Virus record (IMG/VR): IMGVR_UViG_3300029953_000147
Span: 1 to 25,457 of that record
Length of the DNA stretch: 25,457 bases
Reading direction: 5' to 3' (one strand)
Source of the DNA: a virus
The notes below the pieces were generated by a model that was not told where the DNA came from, searched no databases, and saw nothing but the letters and a program-made list of their open reading frames with translations. Of the stretch, positions 2,756 to 8,843 are shown in pieces. The position numbers and the translations under genes were made by a program. How positions within the stretch are numbered: position 1 is the first letter of the stretch; every line of letters starts with the position of its first letter.

Positions 2756-3454
2756 TTGAAACTTCGAATCCTTAGTCTTTTGGTCATTATAGTTGTGTGT
2801 TTTCACACCTTCCGTGCTTGGGAAAGCAGCGATAGGCACCTTCGGTATACAGTATATAAGCTATTCGATGACAGCGGCAGTTGCACTGGGGTTAAGGTAT
2901 TCGCGCCAAGCGGCAAGGCGTACGTGCTGACTGCGGGGCATTGTGCTAGCTTGCTTAAGGACGGCACAGTTAAGGCGACTACGGAAGACGGTGTCGAGTA
3001 TACCCTTAATTTTATTGAGGAAGACCCCTACTCTGATTTACTTCTGCTTTCAGCACCTGTCGACGGTCCTGCGGTGAGTGTAGCAAAGCAATTGGAGCGG
3101 CATGAGCATGTCCACACCTTGACGCATGGCAGAGGATACCCCACTTACCGCACCGACGGTGAGGCCGTCGCAACAGACGTCACCACTGTTCCTACATTAC
3201 GTTTGACGAATCCTAACGACATCGTTAAGTGCTCCTCGCCAAAATATACGATCATAACAACCCCTTTCGGGGATCGGGCATGTGCGGTTGTCACTGTACA
3301 GCTAATATCGACGGCCAGTTTGATACCGGGTAGCAGTGGTGGACCATTATTTAATGCTGAGGGCCAACTTGCGGGTATCGCTAGCGCCACAGACGATAAG
3401 TTTGCGGCTTTTGTTACCCTTTCCGACATTGGATCTTTTTTGAAAGGACGATAG
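2756..3454 (+). CDS. Membrane-anchored or secreted trypsin-like serine protease
   Basis: The 232-residue product has a hydrophobic N-terminal segment (residues about 4-16), a signal anchor or signal peptide, followed by a chymotrypsin-fold domain. The triad is visible: His62 in LTAGHC, Asp94 in PYSDLLLL and Ser194 in PGSSGGPLFN. Cys43/Cys63 and Cys159/Cys176 could form disulfides, as expected for an exported enzyme. The start is TTG at 2756 behind AGGCGG, eight bases after the holin-like gene. It lies between holin and endolysin genes and ends one base before the endolysin ATG, so it is co-expressed with the lysis cassette. Its substrate is unknown: it could cleave outer-membrane or periplasmic proteins during lysis, or process virion proteins. 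The fold call is firm; the role is inference. Confidence 0.8.
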   Translation: MKLRILSLLVIIVVCFHTFRAWESSDRHLRYTVYKLFDDSGSCTGVKVFAPSGKAYVLTAGHCASLLKDGTVKATTEDGVEYTLNFIEEDPYSDLLLLSAPVDGPAVSVAKQLERHEHVHTLTHGRGYPTYRTDGEAVATDVTTVPTLRLTNPNDIVKCSSPKYTIITTPFGDRACAVVTVQLISTASLIPGSSGGPLFNAEGQLAGIASATDDKFAAFVTLSDIGSFLKGR

Positions 3455-3832
3455 ATGTCAATCACTTTCAATGAGTTGCTCCATGGGCACCTCATTAGCG
3501 ATGTCCCGATAGCATGTCAACACAATTTGGAAGAGCTTTTGAAGCGCATTAACGTCATTAGGGACGCTTGGGCTAAGCCGATGACTGTGACGTCAGGCTT
3601 TCGGACGCAAGCCGATCAAATGAGGATCAACCCCAAAGCACCCAACTCAGCGCATACGCGCGGGCAGGCAGTAGACATCTTAGACGAGGGACTCGAGTTG
3701 ACGGCTTGGCTTAAAGGCGATGGCGCTAAGTTGGCCGAAGAGACTGGCTTGTGGTTTGAAGAGGGCAATAAGAATTGGGTTCACGCCCAAATCGTTGCGC
3801 CCCGCAGCGGCCACCGCTGGTTCTTGCCCTAG
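3455..3832 (+). CDS. Endolysin, peptidase M15 family (zinc peptidase)
   Basis: The 125-residue enzyme carries the M15 zinc-peptidase pattern: SGFR with Arg50, SAHTRGQAVDI giving ligands His67 and Asp74, and WVHAQ giving His110. Family members cut peptide cross-links of peptidoglycan (D-Ala-D-Ala carboxypeptidase or L-Ala-D-Glu endopeptidase type). The length equals that of other compact phage endolysins of this kind. There is no signal peptide, consistent with release through the holin encoded upstream. The ATG abuts the stop of the protease gene. Its stop lies in a CTAG palindrome shared with the stop of the convergent helicase gene. Confidence 0.85.
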   Translation: MSITFNELLHGHLISDVPIACQHNLEELLKRINVIRDAWAKPMTVTSGFRTQADQMRINPKAPNSAHTRGQAVDILDEGLELTAWLKGDGAKLAEETGLWFEEGNKNWVHAQIVAPRSGHRWFLP

Positions 3833-5148
3833 AGCTCTAATTCTAAAGGCGTCGTGCCATAAACCTCAAGCAAAACCTTCTTCTGCGCATTATAATGGCG
3901 CACAGTGAATTTGTGGCTGGGATCCCGGATCAAGACCACTTTGGCGCTCTCTTTGCCCGGATACGTCCGGACGGCCCTTCCAACCTGCTGCATAAAGGCA
4001 CTCTTAGCCTTGCCTAGTCCGGCTATAATGACGTATTCGCAGGGCTTTGTGTCCACGCCCTCTCCGATTATGCCTGTCGTTCCTATCAAGGCCGATATTT
4101 GGCCTTTGGCGAAGGCTTTGATTAAGGCTCTAGAATCGTCGTCCTGCCCATTAGCGAAAGGGATGCCTGTCATGGTGCTAAGGGTATTGCCATGCGAGAT
4201 TTCTTTAACCAAGGTCAACGTGGAGCGTTCTTGGGCTTGTAGGCGGAGCATCAAGAGGGCGATACGTTCGTTACGATGCATATTTTGGGTTACTAGTGCT
4301 CGATATACTTCCGCCCAAGTGGTTGCCCCGGTGACAATTTTCGGCATTTTGAGGTAATATGCCTCTACGGGAACGACGTACTTAGCCTTTACCGCGTCGT
4401 GGTAGGACAGTTCGTAGGCTGGCTGGCCGCAGATAGCCTCAAACAGCAGGTGCTCGTTGGTTTGGTTCCGAAAGAAAGTGGCGGATAGAAAGAAGCGGTA
4501 GTAAATGCCATTCCAGACGGATTTATTAAGCTTTTGGTACGTCTTGGCAGCAGCGTGATGACATTCATCAATTATCAAACAGTCGTAATCCTTAGCGTTT
4601 TGCAGCTTTTTACTGTCGATATTGCATATCGTGATATGTGAATCGTTCAGGAAATAGGTCCTCATGGCGGCCTGCAGTTGGTGCTTAATCTCAAGCGACG
4701 GCACTACGACAAGTGTCCTAACCTGGAGTACGTTAGCGAGCATGGCGATGACGAAACTCTTACCTGAGCCCGTAGGCATAACCAAGCCGCACTGTTTGGC
4801 CAAGGATGCCCGGCGTACCGCCTCCACTTGGGCGGGGTAGGGCGTCAAGGTAGGCGCCATATGGAACAGCCTTGCCGCATTTAGAGGCACCTTGCGGGTG
4901 TCATTAGTGCCGAAGGTTATCTGGTTTTTTTGTAAAAATTCATGTACATAGGTCAGTAAGCCCGTGGGAACATTGCCTTTTTTGTCAACTAGTGACTGGC
5001 GCTTGGGCGGAAAGCGGGAGAAAACAGCCGCAGACTCTCCGCCCGGGAGGTAACTTAGCTCCTTGCGCAGGTCAGCCAGGGCTTCTTCCTTGAGTCCGAT
5101 GATACGACTGTAACTGTTGCCAACGGTTATTGTTGCGTTATTTGGCAC
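3829..5148 (-). CDS. Superfamily 2 DEAD/DEAH-type helicase (UvsW-like)
   Basis: The 439-residue protein shows SF2 motifs in order: a Q-like PYPAQVEAV, Walker A PTGSGKS (125-131), VVVPSLEI, Walker B DECHH (194-198), LSAT (221-224), and motif VI QQVGRAVRTYPGK near the end. Phage proteins of this type (UvsW and relatives) unwind branched DNA or R-loops and support recombination-dependent replication. The start is a GTG at 5148, 22 bases inside the end of the upstream lipoprotein gene, so translation is probably coupled. This and the lipoprotein are the only minus-strand genes in the window. Its own C-terminal stop overlaps the endolysin stop. A restriction-type helicase is less likely because no nuclease domain or partner is present. 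Confidence 0.85.
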   Translation of the reverse strand: MPNNATITVGNSYSRIIGLKEEALADLRKELSYLPGGESAAVFSRFPPKRQSLVDKKGNVPTGLLTYVHEFLQKNQITFGTNDTRKVPLNAARLFHMAPTLTPYPAQVEAVRRASLAKQCGLVMPTGSGKSFVIAMLANVLQVRTLVVVPSLEIKHQLQAAMRTYFLNDSHITICNIDSKKLQNAKDYDCLIIDECHHAAAKTYQKLNKSVWNGIYYRFFLSATFFRNQTNEHLLFEAICGQPAYELSYHDAVKAKYVVPVEAYYLKMPKIVTGATTWAEVYRALVTQNMHRNERIALLMLRLQAQERSTLTLVKEISHGNTLSTMTGIPFANGQDDDSRALIKAFAKGQISALIGTTGIIGEGVDTKPCEYVIIAGLGKAKSAFMQQVGRAVRTYPGKESAKVVLIRDPSHKFTVRHYNAQKKVLLEVYGTTPLELEL

Positions 5149-5651
5149 GACGCCCCCACAGTAAAGGTGCAGCTAGAGTTTATGCCGTTCGATTGATATT
5201 GTCCAGGTGGGATGAGGGAGCTAAACCCATCGTTGGCGCTATAGGTGGCATACAGATTGCCGTCGATACAAAAGCCAACCTCCGAGAAGGTGATGGGGTA
5301 GGTCGTCGTTCCTGAGCAAAACTGGACTATGGATATCTGAGTGCCAGGTGCTCCTGGCTGGCCGGCAGGGCCCTGCGGTCCAGAAGGCCCTACAATCGAC
5401 AGTCCGGGTACCCCAGGGCTACCCACAGCCCCATTGCAGATAATGCTTTGTGAGCCGTCTACGGTGATTACAGTGCCGCCCGTTGGACACTGTGTCTCAG
5501 TAGCAGGCGATTGGGTAATTATGGGTGTTTTACCGGGTATCCCCTGATCGCCCTTAGCACCATCGACTCCGTTAACCCCAGAGTACCCGGTGCAGGCGCT
5601 CATAAGGACCATCAGGGCTAGAATCGCAAAAACCAATAGGGCATTCTTCAT
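5127..5651 (-). CDS. Collagen-like lipoprotein
   Basis: The ATG at 5651 is preceded on this strand by GGAGGT; longer in-frame extensions lack a ribosome binding site. The 174-residue product begins with Lys and a hydrophobic stretch ending in the lipobox LMSAC (Cys20), so it is probably a lipid-anchored exported protein. Gly-X-Y triplets occupy residues 25-40 and, with an interruption, 74-103. The rest is Thr/Ser/Cys-rich, with several Cys that could pair outside the cytoplasm. Phage-encoded lipoproteins can act at the host surface, for example in superinfection exclusion, but that is inference here. It has its own regulatory region and runs opposite to the rest of the genome, like an accessory gene. 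It overlaps the downstream helicase start by 22 bases. Confidence 0.75.
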   Translation of the reverse strand: MKNALLVFAILALMVLMSACTGYSGVNGVDGAKGDQGIPGKTPIITQSPATETQCPTGGTVITVDGSQSIICNGAVGSPGVPGLSIVGPSGPQGPAGQPGAPGTQISIVQFCSGTTTYPITFSEVGFCIDGNLYATYSANDGFSSLIPPGQYQSNGINSSCTFTVGASCQITQQ

Positions 5652-5721
5652 AAAACCTCCTGCCCTCAGTGTCGCCCTAAGTGCCCTTAAAGTCAATATT
5701 AAAAATTTTACTAAAAACCAC

Positions 5722-5749
5722 TTGACATAGGCCCTAAAGACGATATACA
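5722..5749 (+). promoter_or_regulatory. Candidate rightward sigma70-type promoter with a box in the spacer
   Basis: TTGACA at 5722-5727 is a perfect -35 hexamer. It is followed after 16 bases by TATACA at 5744-5749, which matches four of six -10 positions. The GGCCCTAAAG box (5730-5739) lies in the spacer, where a bound repressor would block polymerase. No protein gene follows for 500 bases, so it would make a leader or a non-coding RNA. Confidence 0.4.
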
Positions 5750-5809
5750 TTGATATACGGTGACTAGATGCGCCCTCCCTTTTGAAAAACACTCTTTAAA
5801 ACTAACGTA

Positions 5810-5838: not shown

Positions 5839-6012
5839 AGTTTTTAAAAGAGATTGTTCTTAGGGCATACCGCTTTTAGGCACTTTTAGCAAAGGTTTGC
5901 TTTTTAGGGTCCTGAAAATAGTAGAAATCTATACCTTTTACTAAGGCACTATGGGCGCGCGCGCTTTTTTTGCTTGCTTTTCTCGGTGTAGTTCGATATG
6001 ATACGGATTCTA

Positions 6013-6067
6013 GGCCGGGCGTGGCGCGGCGAGGTACGGCATGGCGAGGCGCGGCAGGGCAAGGTGA
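6013..6067 (+). repeat. GGYNN pentamer array 1 (11 units)
   Basis: Eleven consecutive pentamers each begin GGC or GGT, with GG at exact 5-base steps from 6013 to 6063 and variable bases at positions 4 and 5. The last two units are GGCAA and GGTGA. An intrinsic terminator hairpin begins at 6070. The period of 5 is not a codon period. GG runs separated by three bases also fit a two-layer G-quadruplex pattern. Confidence 0.9.
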
Positions 6068-6069
6068 AG

Positions 6070-6097
6070 GGCAAGGCGTAAAAACCTTGCCTTTTTT
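6070..6097 (+). terminator. Intrinsic terminator following array 1
   Basis: GGCAAGG (6070-6076) pairs with CCTTGCC (6085-6091) around an A-rich 8-base loop and is followed by six T. No plus-strand protein gene precedes it back to the lipoprotein start, so it would end a non-coding or leader transcript. Confidence 0.85.
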
Positions 6098-6125
6098 ATT
6101 TTTGTCCTTTATATTTAAATTTCTA

Positions 6126-6185
6126 GGCTCGGCGTGGCGCGGCGTGGTATGGCGGGGCCCGGCCCGGCTTGGTTTGGCAAGGTGA
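6126..6185 (+). repeat. GGYNN pentamer array 2 (12 units)
   Basis: Twelve pentamers begin GGC or GGT at exact 5-base steps from 6126 to 6181. The last two units are GGCAA and GGTGA, as in array 1. It ends flush against the next terminator hairpin. It differs from array 1 at many variable positions, so the GGY phase is conserved rather than a recent identical copy. Confidence 0.9.
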
Positions 6186-6216
6186 AGCGGTAGTCTCAAA
6201 AACTACCGCTTTTTTT
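6186..6216 (+). terminator. Intrinsic terminator following array 2
   Basis: AGCGGTAGT (6186-6194) pairs perfectly with ACTACCGCT (6202-6210) around a 7-base A-rich loop, followed by a seven-T run. It begins at the base after the last pentamer and ends 54 bases before the ATG at 6271. Transcripts entering that operon from the left must therefore read through it, or a promoter lies in the 6217-6260 gap. Confidence 0.85.
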
Positions 6217-6270
6217 ATTCCCCTTGCACTTTAAAAAATAGTGGCATACAGTGGGTTCATAGGAGGATTT

Positions 6271-6840
6271 ATGCAAACGCTAACCGTTACGTTCAAAGGT
6301 ATCAGTCCGCTACTCATGCACAGTGCTCGCTTTGCCAACCCGCTCGACCCGGCTACCAAAGCCCATAAGGCTCTTACGTCTAAGCGTAAGAAGACCGATG
6401 AGGACCACGAAGCCATTGCCAAGAGCGAGTGGCTTGGCGGCTTGTACTACGAAAAAGCCGTAGGGTTCTTCATCCCGGGCACCAACTTCGAAGGGTGCTT
6501 GTTCGAAGCTGCCAAGATGCAGAAGCTCGGTAAGGCGTCGAAGCGCGCTTTGTATGTCGTCGAAGATCATATCAAACTCGACTACAAAGGCCCAAAAGAT
6601 CCAGAAGCGATGTACAAAGACCCTAAGTTTGTCGATGTGCGCGCTGTTAAAGTCGGAACTGCCAAAATCATGCGCAGCCGGCCTAAGTTTCAGGAGTGGG
6701 GCGGAGTGTTCACGCTCCAGTTCAACCCTGAGCAAATCAATGAGTCAGAGATTTTACAAATTTTAACCGATGCTGGATCGTTGGTGGGAGTAGGTGATTA
6801 CCGCCCGCGCTTTGGCAAATTCTCAGTCGAGGTGAAGTGA
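6271..6840 (+). CDS. Phage protein with RAMP/Cas7-like sequence features, function unknown
   Basis: The ATG at 6271 follows AGGAGG at 6261-6266; an in-frame GTG at 6241 lacks such a site. The 189-residue protein opens with a beta-strand pattern ending GISPLLMH (10-17). It contains FFIPGTNFEGCLFEAAK (66-82), close to the IPG-S-x-x-G-x-x-R pattern of CRISPR RAMP (Cas7/Csm3-type) proteins. It ends with a Gly/Arg-rich VGVGDYRPRFGKF (172-184), reminiscent of the RAMP glycine-rich loop. RAMP proteins bind RNA through an RRM-like fold. Similar stand-alone proteins occur in phages as conserved hypotheticals, to my recollection. No cas gene or CRISPR is nearby. It is first in a two-gene operon bracketed by GGYNN arrays. 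The RAMP relation is an inference from motifs only. Confidence 0.75.
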   Translation: MQTLTVTFKGISPLLMHSARFANPLDPATKAHKALTSKRKKTDEDHEAIAKSEWLGGLYYEKAVGFFIPGTNFEGCLFEAAKMQKLGKASKRALYVVEDHIKLDYKGPKDPEAMYKDPKFVDVRAVKVGTAKIMRSRPKFQEWGGVFTLQFNPEQINESEILQILTDAGSLVGVGDYRPRFGKFSVEVK

Positions 6841-7301
6841 TGAGCGATGTAGTTGTACTGCCAATCTGGAAGAACGCTGTCAACAACTTTATTATCAAAG
6901 GGTCGAAGCCAGGTGACCTGATATCAAAAAGTTGGTTGATGCGAGAGTTTGGCATCGAAGAGCCGAAAACGATGTCTGAGTTGCAAAAAGCTCAGCTGAA
7001 GTTTATGGGCTGCATGAACAAGTTCCAAACTGAGTTGTTGGAAGAGCACCAAATCGCTCTGAAGACGGTTCAAGGGGTCGGCTACGAAGTCGTCGCCCCC
7101 GAGGATCAAACGCGGTTTGGCCTTGTAGCAGGCGTAAGGGCTATCGCTAAGGCCATTACTGCTACGGAACGCACTGTCGCAAACGTCAAGGTTGACTCTT
7201 TGACAGATGCACAGCGGCAAGAGCATTCTGACGGCTTGGCTAAAGTAGCCAATATGCAGTCGATGTTCAGCCGACGTCGTTTGCTTGGGCGATTAAAATA
7301 A
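6840..7301 (+). CDS. Conserved hypothetical protein, possibly winged-helix
   Basis: The ATG at 6840 overlaps the previous stop (TGATG); a GTG one codon earlier is less likely. The 153-residue protein has a segment reading PGDLISKSWLMREFGI near residue 24 that could form a recognition-type helix pair. A later GVGYEVVAPEDQ near residue 78 resembles the wing hairpin of winged-helix regulators. The C-terminal half is helical and ends in a basic tail with RRRLLGRLK. A nucleic-acid-binding or regulatory role alongside the RAMP-like partner is inference. It is the last gene before array 3 and its terminator, so these two genes form a closed operon. Confidence 0.7.
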   Translation: MSDVVVLPIWKNAVNNFIIKGSKPGDLISKSWLMREFGIEEPKTMSELQKAQLKFMGCMNKFQTELLEEHQIALKTVQGVGYEVVAPEDQTRFGLVAGVRAIAKAITATERTVANVKVDSLTDAQRQEHSDGLAKVANMQSMFSRRRLLGRLK

Positions 7302-7315
7302 AGTCTTTGTATTTC

Positions 7316-7375
7316 GGCGGGGCTGGGCCCGGCCGGGCATGGTTAGGTGCGGCAGGGCACGGTAAGGCAAGGTAA
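7316..7375 (+). repeat. GGYNN pentamer array 3 (12 units)
   Basis: Twelve pentamers begin GGC or GGT at exact 5-base steps from 7316 to 7371. The last four units are GGCAC, GGTAA, GGCAA and GGTAA, close to the ends of arrays 1 and 2. It lies in the 3' untranslated region of the two-gene operon and ends flush against the terminator. Confidence 0.9.
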
Positions 7376-7403
7376 GAGGGCTTTCGGGCCCTCTTTTTTT
7401 TTT
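7376..7403 (+). terminator. Intrinsic terminator following array 3
   Basis: GAGGGC (7376-7381) pairs with GCCCTC (7388-7393) around a 6-base loop and is followed by ten T. It closes the 6271-7301 operon. Confidence 0.9.
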
Positions 7404-7520: not shown

Positions 7521-7548
7521 ATATTCAGTAACGACTCCTCTGCACTCC

Positions 7549-7592
7549 GGCCGAGGGTAGTAGGTCCCTCCTCCTGCCTACTACCCTCGGCC
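7549..7592 (+). promoter_or_regulatory. Perfect 16-bp leader hairpin upstream of the ClpP-like gene
   Basis: The 16 bases at 7549-7564 are the exact reverse complement of 7577-7592, enclosing a 12-base loop of only pyrimidines plus one G. The first seven loop bases (TCCCTCC, 7565-7571) are perfectly complementary to GGAGGGA at 7628-7634, which is the ribosome binding site of the next gene. The sequence after the stem is TTCTTCT, too weak for a standard intrinsic terminator, so translational control or mRNA protection is more likely than termination. Confidence 0.75.
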
Positions 7593-7636
7593 TTCTTCTA
7601 AGGGGAGGGGTGTTACAAAGGGAGGTTGGAGGGAAT

Positions 7637-8122: not shown

Positions 8123-8250
8123 CCTACCCCTATTATCCTGGTGCGGGAGTTGACCGACGCCCAGAAGTGTCTCATATAGTTGACAAAGATGAGGTAAATG
8201 CAAAGATTGCTATACAAAATAATTTGCATAGCGACGAGGGGGAAGCATGA
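8119..8250 (+). CDS. Small hypothetical protein (43 aa)
   Basis: The ATG overlaps the stop of the ClpP-like gene (ATGA), and its own stop overlaps the next ATG in the same way. The product is MTYPYYPGAG followed by a charged stretch. There is no membrane segment and no recognised motif. The double four-base overlap and lack of another frame across this gap support it as a real translated link in the operon. Confidence 0.55.
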   Translation: MTYPYYPGAGVDRRPEVSHIVDKDEVNAKIAIQNNLHSDEGEA

Positions 8251-8843
8251 GCCAAAAATATGAGTTAATAGCGACCGACAAGACTACGTCATCTGGCGCT
8301 CCACTGCTCCAGATACGGGCCTTGCGTAAGTTTAGTGAAGTTGGCATTGGGGACTTAGGTGGATATGTACAATCGGAGGCCAACTTAAGCCAGGGCTCCG
8401 ACAACGCCTGGGTTTGTGGCAACGCTCAGGTTTATGACAACGCCTGGGTTTATGGCAACGCTCAGGTTTGTGGCAACGCTCGGGTTTTTGCCAGCGCTCA
8501 GGTTTCTGACGACGCTCAGGTTTATGACAACACTCGGGTTTGTGGCAGCGCCTTGGTTTTTGCCAGCGCTCAGGTTTATGGCGACGCTCAGGCGACCGCA
8601 ACTCACCACCTGTTAAGCGTTACAGGTCTCAGGTGGCCGATGACGTCTACTACTGCCGGCGTACAAGTAGGATGCCATAACCACTCAATGCAAGTGTGGA
8701 AAGCGGACTACGCCAGAATTGGCGCAGAAAATGGCCTGTCCCCAGAGTTGGCCAAGGAGTACTTCCGGCTAATGAAAGCGCTGCGCAGAATTCAGAGGCT
8801 AGAGGAGCGGGCTATCAAGGCCGCTGGCGAGGGGGAGAAGTGA
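8247..8843 (+). CDS. Hexapeptide-repeat (left-handed beta-helix) protein
   Basis: The 198-residue protein begins with a domain ending GIGDLGGYVQSEANLSQ, then has eleven tandem hexapeptides at residues 52-117 of pattern x-N/S/D-A-x-V-x. These form left-handed beta-helix coils of about three and a half turns. This combination is a widespread phage and prophage family, as I recall, annotated only as hexapeptide or polymer-forming-like proteins. The C-terminal part is helical and charged, with RLMKALRRIQRLEERAIKAA. No transferase catalytic His is evident, so an enzymatic acyltransferase role is doubtful. The ATG overlaps the previous stop. Function is unknown; a binding or scaffold role is inference. 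Confidence 0.75.
   Translation: MSQKYELIATDKTTSSGAPLLQIRALRKFSEVGIGDLGGYVQSEANLSQGSDNAWVCGNAQVYDNAWVYGNAQVCGNARVFASAQVSDDAQVYDNTRVCGSALVFASAQVYGDAQATATHHLLSVTGLRWPMTSTTAGVQVGCHNHSMQVWKADYARIGAENGLSPELAKEYFRLMKALRRIQRLEERAIKAAGEGEK
8400..8597 (+). repeat. Eleven 18-bp tandem repeats coding hexapeptides
   Basis: Units of 18 bp alternate around variants of GACAACGCCTGGGTTTGT and GGCAACGCTCAGGTTTAT. Unlike the repeat at 430-759, copies are alike at the DNA level, which suggests recent expansion or contraction by slippage or recombination. Confidence 0.85.

Follow-up and report, generated by a model that had tools for sequence, protein, structure and literature searches.

The window, that is, the whole 25,457-nt stretch of viral DNA analyzed here (IMG/VR record IMGVR_UViG_3300029953_000147), raises the question of what function is served by three arrays of pentameric GGYNN repeats, each joined to a terminator hairpin. 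The arrays had been noticed from the raw sequence alone in an earlier note, and its positions and counts were confirmed: 11 in-phase units at 6013-6067 (array 1), 12 at 6126-6185 (array 2), and 12 at 7316-7375 (array 3). GG is present in 35/35 units, position 3 is occupied by C (74%) or T (26%), and the last two units read GGCAA GGTGA in arrays 1 and 2 and GGCAA GGTAA in array 3. No runs of at least five GGNNN units were found elsewhere in the window when both strands were scanned, and the longest GGY run in windows simulated with an order-3 Markov model (200 simulations) was 4. The terminator hairpins (6066-6095, 6184-6212, and 7374-7395) start at or inside the final array unit. Compared with shuffled sequences, the isolated 3′ ends had folding z scores of -4.0 for array 1, -5.1 for array 2, and a moderate -2.4 for array 3. 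A scan against Rfam produced no match.

A two-gene operon, vipr-vap, sits between arrays 2 and 3. The first gene, vipr (6271..6840, plus strand), is preceded by an AGGAGG ribosome site at 6261-6266 and encodes a 189-aa RAMP protein of the Cas7/Csm3 fold; the second, vap (vipr accessory protein; 6840..7301, plus strand), overlaps the vipr stop codon and encodes 153 aa. Both open reading frames (ORFs) are open and well conserved, and the families to which they belong, phrog_4652 and phrog_5926, respectively, are annotated as being of unknown function. A possible weak promoter of the operon lies at 6224..6252 on the plus strand (TTGCAC, 17-nt spacer, TACAGT; 7/12 consensus matches). The vipr profile matches one PDB sequence, chain D of 36pp (“SUSP1 Vipr protein”), over its full length with an E value of 3.4e-81. 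The AlphaFold model of the window Vipr has a pLDDT of 90.8, and Foldseek groups it with chains of Csm3, Cmr, and type VII Cas7 at a probability of 1.00 and E values of about 1e-5. Vap aligns with the second gene of the related loci. In its confident model (pLDDT of 91.0), long helices come after a short N-terminal part that resembles a winged helix; a fold search with this model returned no significant match, the sequence match to an OmpR-type regulator is weak (E value of 0.92), and support for a winged-helix nature is weak. Neither Vipr nor Vap, alone or together with relatives, matched a Pfam family.

This combination of parts has been described under the name VIPR (Viral Interference Programmable Repeat) in a preprint posted in April 2026 (PMC13142463). 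VIPR comprises the single-RRM RAMP protein Vipr, an accessory protein (Vap), and vrRNAs made up of 9-16 YNNGG repeats with a constant GGY and a hypervariable NN; target recognition is by pairing of the NN dinucleotides with double-stranded DNA, one base of the target being skipped from each dinucleotide to the next, and the bound targets, which in nature are mostly competing phages and satellites, are silenced (PMC13142463). Small RNA sequencing, pull-down, binding with the 1-nt skip, and phage repression have been reported for homologues, and both the Vipr-vrRNA complex and target repression have been shown for the SUSP1 and Pseudomonas fulva systems (PMC13142463). The window contains a Vipr homologue with a RAMP fold, an adjacent vap, and arrays of 11, 12, and 12 units; the 3′ tail of the described vrRNAs was not found. 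We consider it almost certain that the window is a VIPR locus and that its three arrays are vrRNA guides serving Vipr on DNA. It is a new, divergent example of an already described system, not a new kind of system. By analogy with the homologues, the window Vipr would bind the vrRNAs and be guided by them. The statement in the earlier note that no named element has this layout is superseded by the April 2026 preprint, whereas its view that the arrays are neither coding nor CRISPR holds. The note did not connect the arrays with the two genes lying between them, which belong to the system. CRISPR-Cas itself was considered and rejected, given the period-5 arrays without spacers and the fact that no cas1, cas2, or further cas gene turned up in the scan of window proteins. 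That the arrays could be spotted from raw sequence alone indicates that the pattern is strong enough for annotating VIPR loci.

The relatives of the locus show which parts of the pentamer are held. A tblastn search found vipr in 130 phage records, mostly of the Felixounavirus type; a vap-type gene follows vipr in nearly all loci inspected, and many IMG/VR contigs, like Felixounavirus VpaE1 and Pseudomonas LESphi2, have the gene pair flanked by GGYNN arrays. In the 1,495 units collected from relatives, positions 1 to 5 carry 1.90, 1.75, 0.74, 0.06, and 0.03 bits of information; the units were located by a GG-seeking scan, which partly imposes the values for GG but not the contrast between Y and NN. 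In phase, at least 7 GGY units per 12 were present at 92/101 distinct relative loci, compared with a maximum of 6 in shuffled sequences. Thus, when relatives are searched for arrays, as the earlier note had proposed, the arrays are there, and GGY is kept while NN drifts freely.

Several relatives depart from the common pattern. In many arrays, one unit close to the center is broken (e.g., GCCAT, GATAA, or GCTGC; L016 at 2749, L022 at 2206 and 2801, L064 at 4688, and L090 at 3237), as if one mid-array position tolerated the loss of GG. Two loci with divergent Vipr relatives (L026 and L027; 34-35% identical) have no GGY arrays, and the flanks of L027 (e.g., 2870-2950 and 3590-3760) carry AGYNN-like pentamers (AGCGC AGCAA AGCAC AGCAC ...). 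L126 has 18-20 GGANN units in place of GGYNN at 3590-3690 and 3796-3885, with GGA almost perfectly kept, and both of these arrays end in GGCTT followed by TCCTTCTAGGCGTACAGA. L127 has a TGANN-like period-5 tract at 3212-3324 (TGAGATGAGTTGAAA repeated), near the gene of a Vipr relative that is 35% identical. Which triplet is held constant thus seems to differ between Vipr clades. Finally, L128 contains about 550 bases of nearly continuous GGCNN arrays (2261-2840) that shift phase at GGCAG/GGC junctions; these may be what PMC13142463 mentions as staggered or overlapping vrRNAs.

Each guide of the window can be resolved into parts, all on the plus strand. For vrRNA1, a predicted promoter at 5974..6002 (TTGCTT, 17-nt spacer, TATGAT; 8/12 consensus matches) ends 10 nt 5′ of array 1 (6013..6067), whose NN dinucleotides read CG GT GC GA AC AT GA GC AG before the shared end units AA GA; the 3′ end (6066..6099) is formed by the terminator hairpin GGGCAAGG..CCTTGCC and a T-run. 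The predicted vrRNA2 promoter at 6087..6115 (TTGCCT, 17-nt spacer, TATATT; 9/12 matches), the -35 box of which sits within the vrRNA1 terminator stem, likewise ends 10 nt 5′ of array 2 (6126..6185; TC GT GC GT AT GG CC CC TT TT, then the shared AA GA), and this guide ends at 6184..6216 with the hairpin GCGGTAGT..ACTACCGC and a T-run. All these promoters were identified solely as sigma-70-type consensus matches. Array 3 (7316..7375; GG TG CC CG AT TA GC AG AC AA, then the shared AA AA) lies in the 3′ untranslated region of vipr-vap, beginning 14 nt past the vap stop codon, and the 3′ end of vrRNA3 (7374..7403; GAGGGCTTTCGGGCCCTC and a T-run) is also the operon terminator. A consensus search found no vrRNA3 promoter comparable to those of vrRNA1 and vrRNA2.

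This arrangement suggests two kinds of guide. Since a plausible -10 box precedes each of arrays 1 and 2 by exactly 10 nt, vrRNA1 and vrRNA2 are probably each a whole RNA of about 85-95 nt and not the end of a longer one; the vrRNA transcripts of the described systems are about 100 nt long and come from intergenic regions (PMC13142463). The nearest sizeable ORF 5′ of array 1 is on the opposite strand, which leaves arrays 1 and 2 without a gene that feeds them. The proposal in the earlier note that these two arrays belong to noncoding RNAs with no gene upstream stands, but the idea that they are the ends of longer RNAs does not, given their own predicted promoters 10 nt upstream. Conversely, because array 3 lacks a promoter of its own and follows the vap stop codon by 14 nt, the vipr-vap operon transcript probably ends in vrRNA3.

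A modest difference between the window and most of its relatives concerns the 3′ ends. A small hairpin begins no more than 4 nt after the last GG in 83/136 arrays of relatives, versus 12 in shuffled sequences, and typically has the form GGGCTG-NNNN-CAGC; we take it to be the 3′ tail described in PMC13142463. No such tail follows arrays 1 and 2 of the window, and the hairpin after array 3 is the terminator itself. In the protein tree, the window Vipr groups with those of L013 and L110, with support of 88/75, which is not firm. The arrays of both of these loci carry tails, and for this reason the simplest reading is that the tail was replaced by a terminator in the lineage of the window. Arrays without a tail but with a nearby terminator also occur in L029 (at 4193) and L128. 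PMC13142463 details the conserved, pseudoknotted tail for the SUSP1 clade; such a tail may not define all VIPR types. As a tentative proposal, to which we give slightly less than an even chance, the window would represent a VIPR lineage in which an intrinsic terminator takes the place of the pseudoknot or hairpin tail, so that the guides are self-contained promoter-array-terminator genes and the terminator also serves to cap the RNP; given the tails of L013 and L110, this replacement would be derived. The simple guide ends of the window would be useful for testing whether the conserved tail is needed.

To examine the guide code, 113 guides, nearly all from relatives, were compared with 838 kb of VIPR loci with the arrays masked, allowing 0-3 skipped bases and using guides with permuted units as the control. 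With a 1-nt skip, 10 guides had a match of at least 85% (1, 2, and 2 for permuted guides) and 4 had a match of at least 90% (0, 0, and 1), counts that are not fully independent, as some guides and loci are related. Skips of 0, 2, and 3 yielded 2, 5, and 3 guides at the 85% level. The guides of relatives thus agree with the published 1-nt-skip rule, and of the skips from 0 to 3, only 1 clearly exceeds the control. This comparison amounts to a small independent replication of the rule on data that were not chosen for it.

Targets of the window's own guides were sought with the decoded NN and the 1-nt skip. No site for guides 1-3 was found inside the window when as many as 3 mismatches were allowed; the phage sequence present in the window is therefore not what the guides address. 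Guide 1 has one exact 9-unit match in IMG/VR, which falls in a portal-like gene of L129 and places the skipped base at codon position 1; it was judged to be due to chance, as about one such match is expected, by our estimate, in a collection of this size. Guides 2 and 3 have no exact 9-unit match in IMG/VR. Units 3-10 of guides 1, 2, and 3 match 16, 17, and 3 stretches of IMG/VR, respectively, in unrelated proteins, and the best looser matches (L151 for guide 1, 21/22 bases counting end units; L131 for guide 2, 19/20) are not convincing. For guide 2, a search of 399 Pseudomonas-phylum genomes allowing 1 mismatch found no site, nor did a search of 10 genomes or records behind relatives allowing 2 mismatches. 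Overall, no convincing target emerged for the window's guides from IMG/VR or the window, nor for guide 2 from the 399 genomes.

Other explanations of the arrays have to be weighed against their identification as VIPR guides. MtrB/TRAP acts at (G/U)AG repeats, and TRAP sites are triplets with 2-nt spacers near terminators. The window arrays, with 11-12 triplets spaced by 2 nt directly at terminators, resemble such sites and could be regulatory leaders in which a ring or filament of an RNA-binding protein wraps the triplets and controls the adjacent terminator; in addition, GGGCAAGG, in the last units of array 1, can pair with the 3′ arm of the terminator and displace the proper 5′ arm. However, the triplet is GGY and not (G/U)AG, the co-encoded protein is a RAMP that matches Vipr, with no TRAP match and an unrelated fold, and arrays 1 and 2 have promoters and terminators of their own, with only vipr, after array 2, available for control. 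Furthermore, most arrays of relatives do not adjoin terminators, and their NN dinucleotides fit DNA under the 1-nt-skip rule. We regard such TRAP-like leaders as very unlikely. The earlier note had attributed the GG rhythm to two-layer G-quadruplexes in RNA or to the faces of the DNA helix. GG runs with 3-nt loops would in principle permit two layers, acting at RNA 3′ ends, but quadruplexes would not call for a pyrimidine at position 3 (0.74 bits), for an unvarying step of 5 nt across 9-18 units, or for the linkage to a RAMP gene seen in 92/101 loci. These readings were abandoned: the co-encoded RAMP protein explains the rhythm, and the guide RNA of homologues is protein bound (PMC13142463), which makes a role for quadruplexes scarcely credible.

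The possibility that the locus is a decayed VIPR, with intact proteins but with RNAs rendered nonfunctional by loss of the tail, draws on the lack of the small-hairpin tail in 3/3 window RNAs, compared with its presence in 83/136 arrays of relatives, and on the failure to identify a target for the window guides. Decay is difficult to reconcile with 35/35 units of perfect GGY, when many relatives have broken units, or with the neatly placed promoters and terminators and the intact state of both ORFs; moreover, the tailless arrays of L029 and L128 show that the window is not alone in this respect. A decayed locus is accordingly highly improbable, and the identification as a VIPR locus with vrRNA guides is retained.

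Among described VIPR systems, that of Escherichia phage SUSP1 (Vipr, vap1, and vrRNA1-4; PMC13142463; PDB 36pp) shares with the window the vipr-vap operon, the RAMP fold, the location in a phage, and GGYNN arrays on both flanks, upstream and downstream, that have 9-16 units and a free NN. It differs in having one guide upstream and three downstream, whereas the window has two and one, and in its conserved tail, in place of which the window has just the hairpin of an intrinsic terminator. Identity of the window Vipr is 44% with the homologue in VpaE1, a member of the SUSP1 clade, and about 55% with that of the Pseudomonas prophage VIPR (LESphi2 locus L001; P. fulva clade of PMC13142463). The latter has the same gene pair and GGYNN arrays, but these end in GGCAA GGGCT followed by the small hairpin tail, usually without a T-run. 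The Class 1 CRISPR effectors (Csm3 and type VII Cas7) also have the RAMP/RRM fold and line a guide RNA with protein at a fixed step; however, the step is 6 nt with one base flipped, in contrast to 5 nt with GGY held, and the window has a single RAMP, no cas1/cas2, and no repeat-spacer array.

By analogy with the homologues, RNP formation, DNA binding, repression, and a role of Vap can be proposed for the window system. The three arrays would be transcribed as vrRNAs, vrRNA1 and vrRNA2 from stand-alone promoter-array-terminator genes and vrRNA3 being released from, or coterminating with, the vipr-vap mRNA. Along the vrRNA, each GGYNN unit would be occupied by one copy of Vipr, which would hold GGY and expose NN, and the row of NN dinucleotides would pair with double-stranded DNA, with a single unread target base separating one dinucleotide from the next. 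Once bound, the target, in all likelihood a gene belonging to a competing phage or satellite, would no longer be transcribed, and Vap would strengthen this repression. VIPR, a relative of CRISPR, represents RNA-guided DNA binding with a gapped code, two readable bases in five, and may be older than CRISPR. With its perfect repeats and the simplest guide anatomy among the loci examined, the window would be useful as a compact part.

Elsewhere, the window encodes a terminase large subunit, a ClpP-like protease, a DNA polymerase, a primase/helicase-type protein, SbcC/SbcD-like and RecA/UvsX-like genes, a DNA methyltransferase, and lysis-type genes. The phage is probably lytic, because no integrase was found among the proteins scanned on this 25-kb fragment. 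Some other features deserve mention. A trypsin-like serine protease gene at 2756-3454 (Pfam Trypsin_2; E value of 3e-11) seems unusual for a phage. An ORF on the minus strand at 5127-5792 has weak tail-fiber matches (phrog_5073 and phrog_3904). The ORF at 8247-8843, the N-terminal part of which matches phrog_5070 and phrog_7964, contains 18-base tandem repeats (GGTTTATGGCAACGCTCA) at 8400-8592. Finally, an inverted repeat at 7548-7595, GGCCGAGGGTAGTAGG...CCTACTACCCTCGGCC, lies just 5′ of the ClpP-like gene at 7610 and by eye resembles a further strong RNA hairpin.
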